DNA of 53,809 nucleotides from an uncultured Gimesia sp. (lineage in GTDB: Bacteria; Planctomycetota; Planctomycetia; Planctomycetales; Planctomycetaceae): contig NZ_CALEMX010000487.1 of the NCBI RefSeq assembly GCF_937910335.1, positions 1-53,809 of the forward strand. Direction: 5' to 3'. Positions within the stretch are counted from its first letter, which is position 1. The number at the start of each line of letters is the position of its first letter. Positions 40,409-50,618 of the stretch are shown piece by piece. Under the pieces are notes generated by a model that was given only the letters and a program-made list of their open reading frames with translations, was not told the DNA's origin and did not search any database. Both the position numbers and the translations under genes were made by a program.

Positions 40409-40897
40409 ATGCGATTTTCGCTCGTCGATCAAATTTTGGAATTAGAGAAAGGTAAGTCGATTACGGCGATCAAGAACCTTTCTCTGGCAGAAGAATACTT
40501 ACAGGACCATTTCCCTGGTTTCGCTGTGATGCCGGGGGTATTAATGGTGGAATCCATCGTGCAAGCTGGTGCCTGGCTGATGCGTTACACAAATGATTTT
40601 GAGTACAGCACGGTTCTGCTGAAACAAACAAAGGGTATTCGCTTTAATAGTTTTGTGACCCCGGGCAAACAACTCAAAGTCTCTTTGAACGTTCATAAGT
40701 GGGAAGAAAACCTGTGCACATTTAAGGTCACTAGTGAAGTTGAAGGTGAAACAGCTGTCAGCGGTCGTATTGTACTGGAGCAATTTAACTTGCGGGACAA
40801 AAACCCGTCGATGGCAGAGAATGATGTAGAGCGTATTAAAGATCTGCAGACACAGTTTAGACAACTTTGGAAACCAAGTAAGCAAATGACTTCCTGA
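40409..40897 (+). CDS. 3-hydroxyacyl-ACP dehydratase (FabZ-like hotdog), copy 1
   Basis: 'LAEEYLQDHFPGFAVMPGVLMVESIVQAGAW' with intact His and Glu. Confidence 0.85.
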   Translation: MRFSLVDQILELEKGKSITAIKNLSLAEEYLQDHFPGFAVMPGVLMVESIVQAGAWLMRYTNDFEYSTVLLKQTKGIRFNSFVTPGKQLKVSLNVHKWEENLCTFKVTSEVEGETAVSGRIVLEQFNLRDKNPSMAENDVERIKDLQTQFRQLWKPSKQMTS

Positions 40898-40971
40898 AAC
40901 CTGAGCCGTCTGCATAGTCGGTATCGTTCAAAGAAATCAAGATAAACATAAATAACTAGATTGGGAATAGT

Positions 40972-41724
40972 ATGAAACTGGATGGAAAAATAGCTCTGGT
41001 AACCGGTGGTAGCCGCGGCATTGGAAAAGCCGCTGTGCAGACCCTGGCCCGGGAAGGGGCAAAGGTTGCTTTTGTGTACCAATCCAGTGCGGAAGCAGCA
41101 GAGCAAATTGTGAAAGAGCTCGCAGACCAAAATTGTGAGGCGATTGCGATTCAAGCAGATGTAGCTGATAAAGCAGCAGCAGATGCGGTCGTCAATCAGG
41201 TCATTGAAAAGTGGGAAAAAATCGATATCCTGGTTAATAACGCAGGTATTATTCGAGATGGCCTTCTGGCTACTATGTCATCAGAAGACTGGCAAGCGGT
41301 GATTGATACCAACCTGACCAGTGTATTTAACTTCTGCCAGGCGGTCACTCGTCCCATGATGTCAAAGCGGTATGGACGCATCATCAATATGTCGAGCGTG
41401 GCTGCCCACTTTGGTAACTCGGGACAAACGAACTATGCCGCCAGTAAAGGGGGAATTATTGGATTTACCCGCTGCCTGGCAACAGAACTGGCAAAACGGG
41501 GGATCACCGTTAATGCGGTAGCTCCCGGTTTTATTGAAACGGATATGACAGTCGACGTGCGGAACGCGGCCGGCGACCAAATCAAGAAACATATCCCCGC
41601 TCGACGCCTGGGTCTTCCGGATGACATTGCCAATGCGGTACTGTTTTTCGCTAGTAACGAGTCATCCTATGTTACCGGTCAAACACTGGCCGTCGACGGC
41701 GGACTCACTTTGGGTGGAATTTAA
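40972..41724 (+). CDS. fabG: 3-oxoacyl-ACP reductase FabG
   Basis: 'IALVTGGSRGIGKAAVQTLAREGAKVAF', 'NNAGI', 'MSSVAAHFGNSGQTNYAASKGG', C-terminal 'TGQTLAVDGGLTLGGI'. Confidence 0.9.
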   Translation: MKLDGKIALVTGGSRGIGKAAVQTLAREGAKVAFVYQSSAEAAEQIVKELADQNCEAIAIQADVADKAAADAVVNQVIEKWEKIDILVNNAGIIRDGLLATMSSEDWQAVIDTNLTSVFNFCQAVTRPMMSKRYGRIINMSSVAAHFGNSGQTNYAASKGGIIGFTRCLATELAKRGITVNAVAPGFIETDMTVDVRNAAGDQIKKHIPARRLGLPDDIANAVLFFASNESSYVTGQTLAVDGGLTLGGI

Positions 41725-41918
41725 TTCAGGTCAATCCGAAGCAGCTTGTTGCCGTTTTCGGAAGAAATATTTTGTGTTATTGGTATCACTCGAATTGGGT
41801 CAATTCAACTTATCGATAACGAAAACCGTCAAGACTATTCTTCTCGCCAAATAGTTTTTAATCAGGCTGGGTCGGCGAGACCAAGCGACCATCAGGTCGA
41901 ACCAAGGAGTAATTACAG

Positions 41919-42305
41919 ATGCCAACTAGAGATGAAATTTTCGATTCCGTGCGTGAAACACTTGTGGATGCTCTGGGACTGGATGATGACGAAGTCGTGC
42001 CTGAGGCCACTCTCATGGGTGACCTCGGAGCAGAATCTATTGACTTTCTTGACATCGCATTCCGTCTGGAAAAAGCATTCGATATCAAAATTCCACGGGG
42101 TGAACTGTTCCCGGAGAATATTGCTTCCTCAGACTCTGGCTTTGTCAAAGACGGTGTCTTTACTGAAACAGGCATTGCAGAACTGCGCGTAAAGATGCCA
42201 CACGCAAACCTGGATACATTTGTAGAAGATCCCAAAGTAGAAAAAATGCAGGATCTGTTTACTGTTGATATGCTGGTCAACTTCCTTGAAGCACGTCTTG
42301 CCTAA
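41919..42305 (+). CDS. Acyl carrier protein with extended C-terminal region (128 aa)
   Basis: 'VRETLVDALGLDDDEVVPEATLMGDLGAESIDFLDIAFRLEKAFDIKIPRGELF' (phosphopantetheine-site Ser in GAESID); about 45 extra residues compared with typical ACPs. Confidence 0.85.
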   Translation: MPTRDEIFDSVRETLVDALGLDDDEVVPEATLMGDLGAESIDFLDIAFRLEKAFDIKIPRGELFPENIASSDSGFVKDGVFTETGIAELRVKMPHANLDTFVEDPKVEKMQDLFTVDMLVNFLEARLA

Positions 42306-42312
42306 TCGAAGA

Positions 42313-42370
42313 AACGGAGGCAAGCTGACTAACGCGCACAGCTCGCGATTGCGGGCTGTACGCCTCCGTT
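42313..42370. other. Structured intergenic hairpin between ACP and second FabZ gene
   Basis: Outer 9-bp stem aacggaggc (42313-42321) / gcctccgtt (42362-42370). Inner hairpin acagctcgc (42338-42346) / gcgggctgt (42351-42359), with one T-G wobble and a gatt tetraloop. Confidence 0.6.
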
Positions 42371-42458
42371 AGAATTTCATTGATTTCAAAACAGCATTCA
42401 GTCACTGATTCGCTGAATTTACATGTGCTGTAACCCAGCAACTTAAAGGTTCATCAAA

Positions 42459-42947
42459 ATGCGATGGTTCTGGATAGATCGCTTTATTGAATTCGAACGT
42501 GGTGATTCTGCAAAAAGTGTGAAAAACGTCACACTTGCTGAAGAGCATCTGCATGACCACTTTCCCGGTTTCCCAGTGATGCCCGGATCTCTGATGATCG
42601 AAGGTATGGCACAAACCGGAGGGATTCTGCTGGGCGAAATCAATGATTTTGAACATATTGTGATCCTGGCCAAAGTACCACAGATGACCTTTCACAGCTG
42701 GGCTTGCCCGGGAGATCAACTGATTTATTCGGCAAAAATCACAAACGCAGGGGACGAAGGAGGGGCCGTTGACGTCACCGCCATGGTAGGAGATCGTCTG
42801 GTTGCAGAAGGTAGCATCATCTTTGTTCACCTCGACCAGAGTGATTCTGAATTTGGCGCGATTGATCAGAAAAACTTTGTGTTTTCAATGAATCTACTGG
42901 GCATTCTTGATGTCGGCAAAGCAGGAAACGGCGAAGATCAGGCTTGA
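42459..42947 (+). CDS. 3-hydroxyacyl-ACP dehydratase (FabZ-like hotdog), copy 2
   Basis: 'LAEEHLHDHFPGFPVMPGSLMIEGMAQTGGIL'; same length and layout as copy 1. Confidence 0.85.
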   Translation: MRWFWIDRFIEFERGDSAKSVKNVTLAEEHLHDHFPGFPVMPGSLMIEGMAQTGGILLGEINDFEHIVILAKVPQMTFHSWACPGDQLIYSAKITNAGDEGGAVDVTAMVGDRLVAEGSIIFVHLDQSDSEFGAIDQKNFVFSMNLLGILDVGKAGNGEDQA

Positions 42948-43126
42948 GTCAGCTATTTTTGGAACCTTGGTATGGAGGCCTTGATTCTAAATGGACTACA
43001 ATAATAATTCCACTATATGAAAACCAGATAAATTATCTGGCAGCAAATCACTTCGGGCTGGGTCAAACAATCTTGTGATTTGTCTGCTGCAACTAAATTC
43101 AATTTAAAAAACTAGAATTCGAAGCT

Positions 43127-44410
43127 ATGAACCGCCGTGTTGTCATTACAGGAATTGGCGCTATTACTCCCTTGGGAAAAACTGTGGAAGACACCTGGAA
43201 AGCACTTCAGGAGTCCCAATGCGGCGTTTCCAATATCACTCATTTCGACGCCTCAAATTTTCCAACCCGATTCGCTGCAGAAGTGCATGACTTCCATCTG
43301 GAAGATTATGTAGACAACGTCGATCGCTTTGAACATTCCGGTCGCAACATTCGCTACGCCATCGGTGCAGCAACACAAGCTGTCAATGATTCTGGCATCC
43401 TGGATGATGATTTTGATCCCGCGACATTCGGTGTTTATCTGGGAGCTGGTGAAGGGCAACAAGATTTCTATAAATTCATGAAGATCATCGCACAAGCTCA
43501 AAACGATGGTCAGGTTGACCTGGAAAAATTTACCAAAGTGGGACTGGAACAGCTCAATCCACTTTTCGAACTCGAGCAAGAACCAAATATGCCGGCCGGC
43601 CATCTGGCCAGCTTGTTCAATGCACAAGGACCGAATCTCAACTGTCTAACCGCTTGTGCCGCCTCCAGCCAGGCAATTGGTGAAGCGTCGGAACTTATTC
43701 GTCGGGGTGACGTTGACATCATGCTTTCTGGTGGTGCACATAGTATGATTCATCCTTTTGGTGTAACTGGCTTCAGCCTGCTAACAGCGCTTTCAACACA
43801 CAATGATGATCCCGCTAAAGCATCGCGACCCTTCGATCGAAACCGGGACGGATTTGTGCTCGGCGAAGGTGCCGGCATGATGATTCTGGAAGATCTGGAA
43901 CGAGCCCAAAAACGTGGTGCTCGAATTTATGGCGAACTGGTTGGCTATGGCTCCAGCGCAGACGCTTATCGTGTTACCGACATTCATCCAGAAGGACGCG
44001 GTGCTATCAAATGTATTAATATGGCCATGAGTCATGCGAATGCCAATCCCGAAGATATTCATTACATCAATGCACATGGAACAAGTACCGCGGTCAACGA
44101 TAAAGTCGAGACCAGAGCCATCAAGGGCGCATTAGGCGAAACAGCCTATAAAGTTCCGGTTTCCAGTATCAAAAGCATGATGGGACACTTGATTGCGGCT
44201 GCGGGAAGCGTCGAAGCCATCACTTGTCTGATGGCCATTCGAGATAATGTCGTCCCTCCCACAATCAACTATGAAACCCCCGATCCGGATTGTGACCTGG
44301 ATTACATTCCCAATGAAGCACGTCAAAAAAAGGTAACAACGACGCTTTCAAACAGCTTTGGATTCGGCGGTCAGAACATCTCTTTGATCTTCTCAGAATT
44401 CAATGGCTAA
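43127..44410 (+). CDS. fabF: Beta-ketoacyl-ACP synthase II
   Basis: 'RVVITGIGAITPLGKTVEDTW', catalytic Cys in 'NCLTACAASSQAIGEA', His in 'NAHGTSTAVND' and 'KSMMGHLIAAAGS'. Confidence 0.9.
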   Translation: MNRRVVITGIGAITPLGKTVEDTWKALQESQCGVSNITHFDASNFPTRFAAEVHDFHLEDYVDNVDRFEHSGRNIRYAIGAATQAVNDSGILDDDFDPATFGVYLGAGEGQQDFYKFMKIIAQAQNDGQVDLEKFTKVGLEQLNPLFELEQEPNMPAGHLASLFNAQGPNLNCLTACAASSQAIGEASELIRRGDVDIMLSGGAHSMIHPFGVTGFSLLTALSTHNDDPAKASRPFDRNRDGFVLGEGAGMMILEDLERAQKRGARIYGELVGYGSSADAYRVTDIHPEGRGAIKCINMAMSHANANPEDIHYINAHGTSTAVNDKVETRAIKGALGETAYKVPVSSIKSMMGHLIAAAGSVEAITCLMAIRDNVVPPTINYETPDPDCDLDYIPNEARQKKVTTTLSNSFGFGGQNISLIFSEFNG

Positions 44411-45258: not shown

Positions 45259-45576
45259 AGCGCATCCCATTTAACCATAGCGCCTTTCATTCTATTATAC
45301 TCGTTTCAAATAGCCTTGGAGACGCCACAGGAAACCTGGACACAGGCTAGATCGATAGTTAGCCAGTTCACATCATTCGTAGTTTCGTTGATTCAAAGAA
45401 ACAGGAACTCTCGATTCCGGGTACACTCCAGACATTTTTCCGTGGAATCGACTTTTCATTAACTTCATAGTGAAGTACACTTCGAGTCGAAATATTAATC
45501 TCAACAGCATACCTGCATCCCGTGTTTTCATACGAATTATCACATATACAGGTCGTGCGGCGGAAAGGAGTCTGCC

Positions 45577-46887
45577 ATGCCATTTGTGCCAACCCGTTTT
45601 ATCCACGCAAGTAACCTGCGCCTCGACCATCAACCTCAGGGAGTCGGTGCGGTTTCCAGAGAGTCGCAAACCCATCTCGAAGACTGCACTTTGGAGACCT
45701 TCGATGGAATCATCAAAGCGTGCCTGGAATATGAAATTGATTTCTTGCTTTTGACGGGCAACACTTTTATCGACGAAGATTACAGCATACGCGCCAGAAT
45801 CGCGCTGATTGATGGATTTCAGCATCTGGCGTCAAAAAATATTCAGGTCTTCGTTATTCCCGGACAACACGATCCCTTGAGTGCCTGGGATTTACAATCC
45901 AACTGGCCTGCTAACGTTACGTTTCTCTCGCCTCAGGATTATGAAAGACTCGATATTATCCACGATGAAGAAACAGTGGCGACACTTCAAATTCTGGATG
46001 CCTCTCACTACAAACTACACCAGCCTTTAAAATTGGAGAAACGCAATCAGCTGTTTAATCAGCATAACCAACGTGTATTTTCGATAGGCTGTATCATAAC
46101 CAATTCAACGACAGATCCGGTGAACCAGCCATCTGAGACGAAGTTAACAGCTCCGCTTAGTTCGTCAGAAGAAACAAACGAAGTGCCCGTTGACTATCTT
46201 GCACTGTGTAAAGGAACTCAGCGACACACATTCGAAATGCAGCCGGGAATTGCCCACCATCCAGGTGCAGGCCAGGGACTCAACTTCGATGAATGTAAAA
46301 GCAATGGTGTTACGTTAGTCACAATCAATCCGGAAGAACAATGGGACCATCGTCCGTTAAACGTCGCCGTCGTTCGCTGGTTAGTGATCGATATAAATCT
46401 GAATCCGGAAACGTCTCGCAATCAGCTCAAACAGCTGATGGAAGAAGCCCTGCTCACTCGAACTCCGAAGAACCATGAAAAGTTATGGATGGTACGTTGG
46501 AATATCAAAGGGTCTGGCGAGCTCTTCGAGACTCTACGAAGCTTCAAAAACCAGGCTGGTTTAAGCTCCGAATTCGCAAACGAAACCAATGATCGTCTGC
46601 CGTTATTGCTTGAACAATCATATTATCTTCAAGAAACAAACGCGAATTCCGAAACAGAACAGTCTGGCTTGATAAAACTGTATCAGCAACAACTTGAAGA
46701 ATTTCAGACTGAATCAACATCGCCATTGAACCAATTAATCACACAATCAACTCAGCTTGATCAAACCTGGCAGCGACGTCTCAGCGCGTTAACAGAACAG
46801 GTGAATGAGCAACACGTTTTTAATAAGGCTATCCAAAACGGACATAGCTGGCTTAGCATCTCGTCGGGCGAGGAAGTTCACATATGA
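45577..46887 (+). CDS. SbcD/YhaO-like metallophosphoesterase-fold protein with degenerate active site
   Basis: Strong RBS (ggaaaggag) before ATG. 'RFIHASNLRLD...FLLLTGNTFIDEDYS...VFVIPGQHDPL...DYLALCKGTQR' aligns with MPP motifs I-V, but the metal ligands are substituted. Confidence 0.8.
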   Translation: MPFVPTRFIHASNLRLDHQPQGVGAVSRESQTHLEDCTLETFDGIIKACLEYEIDFLLLTGNTFIDEDYSIRARIALIDGFQHLASKNIQVFVIPGQHDPLSAWDLQSNWPANVTFLSPQDYERLDIIHDEETVATLQILDASHYKLHQPLKLEKRNQLFNQHNQRVFSIGCIITNSTTDPVNQPSETKLTAPLSSSEETNEVPVDYLALCKGTQRHTFEMQPGIAHHPGAGQGLNFDECKSNGVTLVTINPEEQWDHRPLNVAVVRWLVIDINLNPETSRNQLKQLMEEALLTRTPKNHEKLWMVRWNIKGSGELFETLRSFKNQAGLSSEFANETNDRLPLLLEQSYYLQETNANSETEQSGLIKLYQQQLEEFQTESTSPLNQLITQSTQLDQTWQRRLSALTEQVNEQHVFNKAIQNGHSWLSISSGEEVHI

Positions 46888-49800
46888 AAATTACCAGAAT
46901 CCACGTCGATCAATTTGGAAACTGGAAAGACCTGACTCTTGCTCCCCTGAATGCGGGGATCAATGTATTTTATGGTCCGAATGAAACCGGTAAATCAACT
47001 TTAATGCGCATGATTCGCGGCATTCTTTATGGTTTTCACCTGGAAAAAATTCAGGCAGGTTCCCGTGTTTCCGATGCCGTTCCCTGGTCAGGCTTATTAG
47101 ATATACAACATAAAGGACAACGTTACGAAATCCGTCGCAAAACCAACTCCAAAGCAAATGGTCATTTTTGGTTCCAGGGAGAATCGAAGGGGACTTCCAG
47201 CCAGGATCTGCTCACATCCCTGCATGCCGGTGTGAATGAAACCGTATATGAAAACATATTTGCCATCGGCTTAAATGAATTGCAGGAACTGGGCACCCTG
47301 CACGGCGATCAGGTAGCGCAACATATTTATGGCCTCTCTTTAGGACCGGAAGGGCGGGCCATTCTTGATGCGTCTGATCAATTAGGTCAATCACAACAAA
47401 AGCTGCTCAGCGACAACTTCAAAACCGGAAAACTGGTTGATCTGTATCAGCGGCTTGATGATGTGAATTCCAAACTCGAAGATCTGAAACAACAGGCAGA
47501 GCGTTTTTTCAATTTGACGGGTGAATTACAGAAATTACGCTCTGAATCTGACAGCCTCAAAAAACGCAAAGCAGGATTACAATATCAGATCCGGGGGCAT
47601 CGTTTTCTGGATCGCGTCTGGAGACCCTGGCAGGAAGTACAAACTCTGCGTCAGAAATTAAAACAACTACCCATCATTCAGAATTTTCCAGAAAATGGTG
47701 TCGCCTTACTGAATGAATACGACCAGGATTTGAAACAGCTCGAAGCTAAGCTAATAGAACTCGAAGCAGAGATCCAAAGACTCGGTAAAGAAATTGAGCG
47801 CTACGAGTCAGCCAATGATTTCCTCAATTTTGCTCCTGACATTCAAAGTCTGTCTGACCAGAAAGCCTGGATAGCCGATCTGGAACAGCAGTATCAGCAA
47901 GGCGAATCTCAGAGAATCGATGTAGAACAGGCATTAAACAAACATCTCACGCAGGATCTGACCCTGAGTGACATCAGGCAGATTCAGACAACGCCCGATA
48001 ATAATCAATGCCTCATTCAGGCAGCACGTGCTTATCAACTTGCCTGCACGAAACGCAAAAACGCACATCAGCGTTATAAAAAAGTTTCCCGGAAATATCA
48101 GCAAACATTAGTCCAACTACAGGAACAATCAAGCGAGTTGCTTAATGGGAATTCGATTGAAGAAGAAATGCGAAGAGCCCATGAACGAATGAAACACCTG
48201 GAACGCCTCAGCCAGTTACGGGTTCGGGAATCTGAAATTCTCATTCGGCAGGAAGCGCTTCAAGAACAGTTATCGCGACTACGGTCTCACGCTCGCATCC
48301 CCAGTTGGGCTAAAAAATCCTTATTTGGTTTTGCCCTGGCTGGAATGCTGTTGATTGTTGCCGGCGTATGGCGTGGTGTTTCGGATGCGGTTCTCGTCGG
48401 ATTGATTTATTGTCTCTCAGGAATGTTTTTAGGTGGAATTGCCTGGGCTCTTAAAAAACATTATGAAATTGATATCGATGATCAAGCAGAAGAATTACAA
48501 GATGAAAGCCGAACGTTAGACATTCACTTGCGAGAAACACAACAGGAAATCGAGCTACTGCTGGAAGACGAATTCTTTGCCCTCAAAATAATTACTGAAG
48601 GACACTCGCTAACCAGCCATAGACAGCACAACAATATCCCTGCCCTCAATTACAACGAAGAAAATATTCTCCGTACAGATTTGCTGCATGAACTGGCTCT
48701 CAAAATCAGTCAACTGGAACAGTTGAAAACCGAGCAAGAACGAGCACAAAAAACACGTCAGCTACTCGTAAAACTGAGAAATCGTTCCCAGGAAATACAG
48801 CGTCTTTTTAGCAGCAAGCGGCATGACTGGTGTGAATGCCTCAAACAATTAGGTTTAACAGAAACGCTGAAAACCACTGAAGCATTTCAAATGTGGCATC
48901 GAGTTTCCAATGCGAATTTATATGCGAACCAGCTCGATCAGATAAAACGTCAAATCAAACCAGCCGGTGAAATAATCAACCAGTTCAACCAGCGCGTACG
49001 TGACTTAGGGTTACGGATGGACCGCAGAAACCATAATTTCGATAAACCGTTCGATGTCATAGCAGAATGGGAACGCGAACTCGGTACACTCTCCGTGCAT
49101 CAACAAGACTGCGCTCGCCTGCGTAAAGAAGAAAAAAAACTACGACAGCAATCAGACTCCATCCAATTAAATATTCAGGAACTGAAACAGAAACGTTCAA
49201 GCCTGATGATTCAGGGCAGCGCATCAAATCGCGAAGAATTCGTTCAACGAGCAACCTCTCTTGAAGAACGGATTCTAATTGAAAATCTCCTGGAGGATGC
49301 ACAGACTGAATTGGAACATATCAGCCGCACCGAACAGGAAATGGCGATTGTCGAAGAAGATCTACTGAATTTCAATCTGGATGATAACACCGAACATCTC
49401 GAAATGCTGAACCTGGAACTGGAAGACATAGAGCAAGATCTGGTAAGAACCGCCGAAAATATGGGTCGGTTAAAACAGGAATTTCAAAACGCCAAAACCG
49501 ATCGCAGCTCGGCTCATTTACGTTTTGAACGAGAACAGATTCTCCAACAAATTAAACAGACCAGTACAAATTGGTTCGCAAATCAACTTTCAAAAACAGG
49601 TTTGAAGCAGTTACGTTTAGAATATGAACGAACCTGTCAACCAGAGACATTGGCAATTGCTTCTGAATATCTTAGCCAACTGACTAATGGGAAATATACA
49701 AATATCTGGACTCCTCTAGGTGAACAGTTCCCAAAAATTGACGATCAACAAGGGCATACGCTCACCGTAAGTGAACTCAGCAGTGGTACGCGCGAGCAAC

Positions 49801-50618
49801 TCTTTCTGGCAATCCGCCTGGCAATGGTAGAGCGTTTTCGAAATAACGGCGTCGAGCTCCCCATGATCCTGGATGATGTGCTTGTTAATTTTGACCAGGA
49901 GCGAACAATCGCTGCTATTAAAACTTTAAATGCCGTTGCTGAAAAAGGGCAGCAAATCCTGTTCTTCACCTGCCATCTACATCTATCCCAACTGTTTGAA
50001 GAACATGGTGGCGATCCCATCTTGTTACAGGATACGAAGTCTCAATCCACTACATCTCCTGCCTTGACGCAGTCTAATCCCGAAATGGAACAAACATCCG
50101 ATACCGAAAGATCCCACGAACAGCGAGCATTTCGCAGAGACAGTCCGCATGATGCTTCATCCTGTTTCAGCCCGTCGATCCCGCCATTTTATTTGAATCG
50201 TTCGATGCCCATAGAATCAGCCCCCTCCATTGGCGCCAAAACAGCACAACGGCTGGAAAGAATTGGTATCTTTACTATCGATGATTTTCTGGAGTGTAAT
50301 CCCGAATTCGTCTCCGGAAAGTTGAAGAGACGCCACATCAACAAACAGAAAATTCGTCAATGGAAAAAACAAGCGAAGCTGGTTTGCTGCATTCCTGGTT
50401 TACGAGGCCATGACGCACAGGTTCTAGTTGCTTGCGGCTTTTTTGAGCCCGATGCGATCGCACGTTCTTCACCGAATGAATTATTCGAAAAAGTACAGGC
50501 GTTTGTAAATACTTATGAAGGAGAACGACTTCTCCGAGGCGCTAAAAAACCGGACTTCAGTGAAATCACAGACTGGATCAATTGGTCTCAACAAGCCAGA
50601 GAACTGCATGCCGCTTGA
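46884..50618 (+). CDS. SbcC/YhaN-like AAA ATPase with internal TM hairpin and C-terminal DUF4332-like domain
   Basis: Walker A 'GPNETGKST', signature 'LSSGTREQLFLAIRL', Walker B 'LPMILDDVLVNFD', H-loop 'FFTCHLH'; long coiled coils. C-terminal 'SIGAKTAQRLERIGIFTIDDFLECNPEFVSGKL...' resembles DUF4332. 4-nt ATGA overlap with the upstream gene. Confidence 0.85.
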   Translation: MKITRIHVDQFGNWKDLTLAPLNAGINVFYGPNETGKSTLMRMIRGILYGFHLEKIQAGSRVSDAVPWSGLLDIQHKGQRYEIRRKTNSKANGHFWFQGESKGTSSQDLLTSLHAGVNETVYENIFAIGLNELQELGTLHGDQVAQHIYGLSLGPEGRAILDASDQLGQSQQKLLSDNFKTGKLVDLYQRLDDVNSKLEDLKQQAERFFNLTGELQKLRSESDSLKKRKAGLQYQIRGHRFLDRVWRPWQEVQTLRQKLKQLPIIQNFPENGVALLNEYDQDLKQLEAKLIELEAEIQRLGKEIERYESANDFLNFAPDIQSLSDQKAWIADLEQQYQQGESQRIDVEQALNKHLTQDLTLSDIRQIQTTPDNNQCLIQAARAYQLACTKRKNAHQRYKKVSRKYQQTLVQLQEQSSELLNGNSIEEEMRRAHERMKHLERLSQLRVRESEILIRQEALQEQLSRLRSHARIPSWAKKSLFGFALAGMLLIVAGVWRGVSDAVLVGLIYCLSGMFLGGIAWALKKHYEIDIDDQAEELQDESRTLDIHLRETQQEIELLLEDEFFALKIITEGHSLTSHRQHNNIPALNYNEENILRTDLLHELALKISQLEQLKTEQERAQKTRQLLVKLRNRSQEIQRLFSSKRHDWCECLKQLGLTETLKTTEAFQMWHRVSNANLYANQLDQIKRQIKPAGEIINQFNQRVRDLGLRMDRRNHNFDKPFDVIAEWERELGTLSVHQQDCARLRKEEKKLRQQSDSIQLNIQELKQKRSSLMIQGSASNREEFVQRATSLEERILIENLLEDAQTELEHISRTEQEMAIVEEDLLNFNLDDNTEHLEMLNLELEDIEQDLVRTAENMGRLKQEFQNAKTDRSSAHLRFEREQILQQIKQTSTNWFANQLSKTGLKQLRLEYERTCQPETLAIASEYLSQLTNGKYTNIWTPLGEQFPKIDDQQGHTLTVSELSSGTREQLFLAIRLAMVERFRNNGVELPMILDDVLVNFDQERTIAAIKTLNAVAEKGQQILFFTCHLHLSQLFEEHGGDPILLQDTKSQSTTSPALTQSNPEMEQTSDTERSHEQRAFRRDSPHDASSCFSPSIPPFYLNRSMPIESAPSIGAKTAQRLERIGIFTIDDFLECNPEFVSGKLKRRHINKQKIRQWKKQAKLVCCIPGLRGHDAQVLVACGFFEPDAIARSSPNELFEKVQAFVNTYEGERLLRGAKKPDFSEITDWINWSQQARELHAA

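Follow-up and report, generated by a model that had tools for sequence, protein, structure and literature searches.

A protein of the Mre11/SbcD/YhaO type in the class Planctomycetia has lost the residues that bind the catalytic metals and has been kept by selection beside an intact Rad50-like ATPase. We studied it in a window of 53,809 nucleotides from an uncultured Gimesia sp., the whole stretch of DNA that was analysed, and refer to it as pseudo-YhaO (Table 1). The ligand loss and its phylogenetic extent, the selection acting on the gene, its constant pairing with the ATPase gene and the intact motifs of that ATPase were established directly. Pseudo-YhaO probably serves as the pseudonuclease subunit in a YhaON (SbcE-type) complex that would be anchored in the membrane and would clamp or tether DNA under ATP gating. 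In the literature searched, we found no earlier description of the planctomycete pseudo-YhaO family.

Table 1. Features of the pseudo-YhaO locus, in coordinates of the window
Feature	Position	Strand	Basis or remark
RBS-like GAAAGGAG	45563..45570	+	6 nt 5' of the pseudo-YhaO ATG
Pseudo-YhaO, Mre11/SbcD/YhaO-fold protein predicted to lack a functional two-metal site, 436 aa	45577..46887	+	ORF and profile alignment
Motif I D-x-H, replaced by N13-x-R15	45613..45621	+	profile alignment
Motif II bridging Asp, replaced by N62 (GNTF)	45760..45762	+	profile alignment
Motif III N-H, now Q97-H98	45865..45870	+	profile alignment
Motif IV His, replaced by I174	46096..46098	+	profile alignment
Motif V H-x-H, replaced by K212-x-T214	46210..46218	+	profile alignment
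Partner ATPase, YhaN/Rad50-like (AAA_27, AAA_23), 1244 aa, 4-bp overlap with pseudo-YhaO	46884..50618	+	ORF and Pfam
Walker A GPNETGKS, ATPase residues 31-38	46974..46997	+	
Two-helix hydrophobic (predicted membrane) hairpin at the ATPase coiled-coil apex, residues 481-516	48324..48431	+	hydropathy only
ABC signature LSSGT, ATPase residues 965-969	49776..49790	+	
Walker B PMILDD, ATPase residues 993-998	49860..49877	+	
C-terminal DUF4332 (helix-hairpin-helix-like) of the ATPase	50223..50585	+	Pfam

The pseudo-YhaO frame is open and starts with ATG, and its ribosome-binding site carries AAAGGAG. The stretch 5' of the gene is conserved, with an in-frame GGKESA in most Gimesia and several other genera. 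At 46884-46887, the sequence ATGA holds both the stop codon of pseudo-YhaO and the start codon of the ATPase. The open frame, the ribosome-binding site and the junction with an intact ATPase gene, as described in the sequence-only reading, were all recovered. Further upstream (40409-44410), the translated ORFs resemble a fatty-acid-synthesis cluster with two FabZ-like proteins, a FabG-like protein, an acyl carrier protein and a ketosynthase.

The Gimesia protein is barely detected by standard family models. Pfam Metallophos gave 16.8 bits, below the cut-off of 21.5, and TIGR00619, the NCBIfam model of SbcD, gave 23.9 bits against a cut-off of 77.65, which intact YhaO proteins also miss (52-58 bits). 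We made profile-profile comparisons among three sets: A2, with 21 orthologues from Planctomycetaceae; A3, with 21 from other families; and A4, with 18 canonical YhaO paralogues of the same class. A2 matched the intact planctomycete proteins of A4 with an hhalign probability of 100 (E 1.4e-43), and A3 matched A4 at E 7.2e-57. The two pseudo groups, A2 and A3, were alignable over their full length (E 3.7e-59). The alignment of pseudo-YhaO with intact YhaO extended through the capping domain. Against the PDB, the A4 profile matched Pyrococcus furiosus Mre11 (1ii7, E 9.4e-19) with the motifs in register, and the A2 profile matched Thermotoga Mre11 (3qg5, E 5.5e-5). Judged by sequence profile, the Gimesia protein has the predicted fold and domain order of Mre11/SbcD/YhaO. 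Since an AF2 model of pseudo-YhaO, made from three sequences, was unusable (pLDDT 40.1, pTM 0.28), we mapped the ligands by sequence-profile alignment.

The ligand and catalytic positions of the Gimesia protein are N13, R15, N62, Q97, H98, I174, K212 and T214, which we take to match D8, H10, D49, N84, H85, H173, H206 and H208 of PfMre11 (PfMre11 numbering). Seven of the eight are replaced and H98 is kept. All five motif readings of the sequence-only reading (HASNLRLD, LTGNTFI, PGQHDP, IGCIITN and LALCKGTQR) were present, and the profile alignment confirmed their ligand columns. In the change from GDxFD to GNTFI, the first Asp is indeed replaced (N62), but the second is not a ligand. The His of GQHD is the sole remaining catalytic residue, as had been proposed, but it is not a constrained remnant, because only 9 of 48 Planctomycetaceae orthologues retain it. 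In Mre11, the equivalent His (PfMre11 H85) and the metal-2 ligands are required for catalysis. The loss of the active site in pseudo-YhaO is well supported by these alignments.

We compared 88 pseudo-type members of the class Planctomycetia (48 from Planctomycetaceae and 40 with other family codes) with 30 intact homologues. Because all 30 intact homologues keep eight of eight ligands and the 48 Planctomycetaceae orthologues keep 0-2, the substitution is not due to chance; in other families, the range among the 40 members is 0-5. Only one of the 88 pseudo-type members retained the motif-III Asn, and none of the 88 retained the first His of GHxH. Outside Planctomycetaceae, the complete metal-1 set (D, H, D, H) was present in 17 of the 40 members, and of the three ligands specific to metal 2 (N, H, H) no member kept more than one. 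Under the usual assignment of Mre11 ligands to metals 1 and 2, on which the order of loss rests, these present-day states suggest that metal 2 and the catalytic His were lost first and metal 1 later, in Planctomycetaceae. In other Planctomycetota classes, and in Firmicutes and Deinococcus, membrane-type YhaO keeps all eight ligands. The erosion is therefore specific to the class; within Planctomycetia it apparently had a single origin and proceeded stepwise. Conservation of the substitutions N/R/N/Q/K/T holds mainly within Gimesia, and incompletely even there. What is seen family-wide is mainly GN[TSC]F together with N or R at motif I.

The dN/dS ratio (Nei-Gojobori) between Gimesia pseudo-YhaO and its nearest relative was 0.27, and that of the partner ATPase was 0.17; other close pseudo-YhaO pairs gave 0.09-0.40. 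Of the columns whose conservation in the intact proteins reaches 95% or more, Planctomycetaceae retain 14/21 non-ligand columns vs 0/8 ligand columns (Fisher p = 0.002). Given the low dN/dS values and the persistence of neighbouring structural residues, pseudo-YhaO is not decaying. In addition, Trp104 and Trp308 are near-fixed in the pseudo clade and not in intact proteins, which suggests a new constraint and not just relaxation. The fast divergence of pseudo-YhaO and the heavy erosion of a few members (L077, L078 and L085) would fit a dispensable gene in ordinary decay, or an artefact of sequencing. However, the degeneracy is common to independent genomes, the frames are open in nearly all members and dN/dS stays in the range given above, and we attach almost no credence to this account. 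Sequencing error and strain-specific decay were rejected on the same evidence: the degeneracy is shared by orthologues from the same genus and from many other genera. The dN/dS well below 1, the degeneracy shared across genera and the intact adjoining ATPase argue for selection for a non-catalytic role, as the sequence-only reading had supposed.

At the loci examined, the ATPase gene directly follows pseudo-YhaO, and no third conserved neighbour gene was found beyond the genus. The hydrophobic hairpin of the ATPase sits where Rad50 has its zinc hook. By hydropathy, one or two strongly hydrophobic apex segments occur in 85/85 ATPases paired with pseudo-YhaO vs 0/17 partners of canonical YhaO in the same class. 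The fusion of DUF4332 to a membrane-type ATPase was seen only in Gimesia among the loci examined. The DUF4332 stretch scores below the cut-off against helix-hairpin-helix models, and these sub-threshold scores raise the possibility of an extra DNA contact in Gimesia. One DUF4332 copy is present in the locus studied here and in the Gimesia genomes G002, G003 and G004, and two copies in most other Gimesia. In ATPases outside Planctomycetaceae, DUF4332 is replaced by long C-terminal tails that are largely acidic and proline-rich (e.g. L152:2-517 and L153:5620-6201).

The MPE tree recovered the pseudo-type members as monophyletic (99/98), inside the membrane-type YhaON branch (96/99). The ATPase-head tree agreed, with a monophyletic pseudo clade (100/99) within the membrane-type branch (100/100). 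Membrane-type pairs with an intact YhaO were found in Listeria, Latilactobacillus, Deinococcus, one Clostridia record and other Planctomycetota classes. This is most simply explained by an ancestral membrane-type pair whose active site was lost within Planctomycetia. Of the SbcD/YhaO-like identity first assigned, the YhaO part stands; among intact proteins, it is not SbcD that is nearest but the membrane-type YhaO found in other classes and phyla. A strict coupling of membrane anchoring with nuclease death was rejected. The hairpin occurs with an intact site in Firmicutes, Deinococcus and planctomycetes of other classes, and degenerate MPE proteins also stand beside hairpin-less ATPases; therefore, anchoring neither requires nor causes the loss of the nuclease.

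With TIGR00619, we found no canonical SbcD or YhaO in the host genome. Contig C1 of this genome (L096 68-2459) carries a small Mre11/Rad50-like pair by ORF reading. It consists of a 483-aa Rad50-like N-terminal half ending near CPTCGAE, with a hook-like CPTC, and an overlapping 318-aa phosphoesterase with all motifs intact. Given this pair, the idea of a host without any active MR nuclease was rejected, and another MR-like nuclease is probably still present in the cell.

We considered what else a pseudonuclease pair might do. Such a complex could act outside DNA tethering, as an allosteric regulator or sensor (e.g. of membrane stress, or in signalling), with the ATPase signalling conformationally across the hairpin. 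The loss of the nuclease, the hydropathy-based membrane hairpin in all partner ATPases and the long, acidic or proline-rich tails outside Planctomycetaceae are consistent with this. However, the Rad50-type ATPase heads and the Mre11 fold are conserved. Moreover, PMC3896406 and PMC4205851 cite a title that describes the B. subtilis homologue SbcE (YhaN) as an SMC-like DSB-repair protein. In Bacillus pumilus, yhaONM is linked to the SOS response, with yhaO and yhaN listed under LexA/SOS in these papers. A regulator or sensor is thus rather unlikely, though it deserves serious consideration.

An enzyme that is still active, with a shifted or single-metal site, would find some support in the metal-1 sets of other families, and in a new His (H227) common in the pseudo clade. 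Yet Planctomycetaceae, the Gimesia protein included, have lost the ligands of both metals and, in most cases, the catalytic His as well, and no new Asp, Glu, His or Cys column near the motifs is invariant in the pseudo clade. We consider residual phosphoesterase activity improbable. Since 17 of the 40 members outside Planctomycetaceae keep the metal-1 site, some metal-dependent role is possible there. The weak match of PADLOC LmuB to the ATPase (54 bits, N-terminal part only) would suit a component of Lamassu-like anti-phage defence, in which a Rad50/SMC ATPase acts with a partner. Against this, the pair is near-universal in Planctomycetaceae, and no effector-like conserved neighbour (LmuA) was found at the loci examined. 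PADLOC gave no match for pseudo-YhaO and viral contigs held no relative. The defence reading was rejected, and we grant it only a very slight chance.

We favour the pseudonuclease subunit of a membrane-anchored clamp or tether. By homology, pseudo-YhaO and the adjacent YhaN-like ATPase would form a two-subunit, Mre11-Rad50-type complex, and the hairpin at the coiled-coil tip, judged also by hydropathy, would anchor the ATPase in the membrane. The Mre11-fold subunit is most likely structural, a putative DNA-binding clamp that would dimerise, cap the ATPase heads and couple their ATP-driven opening and closing to DNA binding. The complex may hold DNA, or the ends of DNA, at the membrane and leave it uncut, and DUF4332 of the Gimesia ATPase probably adds a DNA contact. 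The planctomycete pair would then have kept the ATP-driven clamp and DNA tethering and dropped cutting. In its widest form, which we put forward only tentatively, a class-wide Mre11-Rad50-type complex lost its nuclease in two steps (the metal-2 site and the catalytic His, then metal 1 in Planctomycetaceae). In Planctomycetia it might now be dedicated to tethering DNA from its membrane anchor under ATP gating, or to organising the nucleoid, and would be an MR complex with a natural separation of function. Planctomycetes are known for their invaginated membranes, and some of them also for a condensed nucleoid (PMC8567305). If the hairpin inserts, the pair would be a membrane-linked DNA machine in a group with such membranes.

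Compared with known systems, the pair can be described as a pseudoenzyme branch of membrane-type YhaO/YhaN (SbcE). Like the pairs of Firmicutes and Deinococcus, it consists of an Mre11-fold gene followed at once by the gene of an AAA_27 Rad50-like ATPase with a hydrophobic apex segment, and it lies on the same tree branch; unlike the Gimesia protein, which keeps one of the eight ligand and catalytic residues, their YhaO keeps all. The hairpin-less YhaO/YhaN of Planctomycetia and Alphaproteobacteria share the two-gene layout and the folds, but have an intact active site, no membrane segment and a separate clade. SbcCD and archaeal Mre11-Rad50 are linked to the pseudo-YhaO family by the profile match to 3qg5, whereas the pair has no two-metal site, no zinc hook and a score below the SbcD cut-off. 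SMC/condensin complexes also combine ABC-ATPase heads and long coiled coils with non-enzymatic partners; the pair differs in its Mre11-fold partner, in the hydrophobic hairpin in place of the hinge and in that no kleisin was found at the loci. The phosphoesterase B-subunits of eukaryotic DNA polymerases have the same fold, have lost the metal ligands and are now structural. Pfam DNA_pol_E_B matched four pseudo-YhaO family members weakly, but the partner of the B-subunits is a polymerase and not a Rad50-like ATPase, and the two losses were presumably independent.

Cutting as opposed to tethering or signalling in Mre11-Rad50 is usually studied with engineered nuclease-dead mutants. Here, evolution made such mutants and kept them class-wide, with intermediates visible and intact sisters in neighbouring classes, which suggests that the complex has a job needing no nuclease. 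In one genome of another planctomycete class (G303), contig C50 carries two membrane-type YhaON pairs (L205 and L206), both intact and separated by about 10 kb. Furthermore, other Planctomycetaceae have a second type of pair, with a hairpin-less ATPase and tandem DUF4332 (L106 4251-8855, L107 6153-9770 and L072 4168-8988). A degenerate MPE was seen beside the ATPase in L106 and L072, and in L072 the tandem DUF4332 lies on a separate frame.
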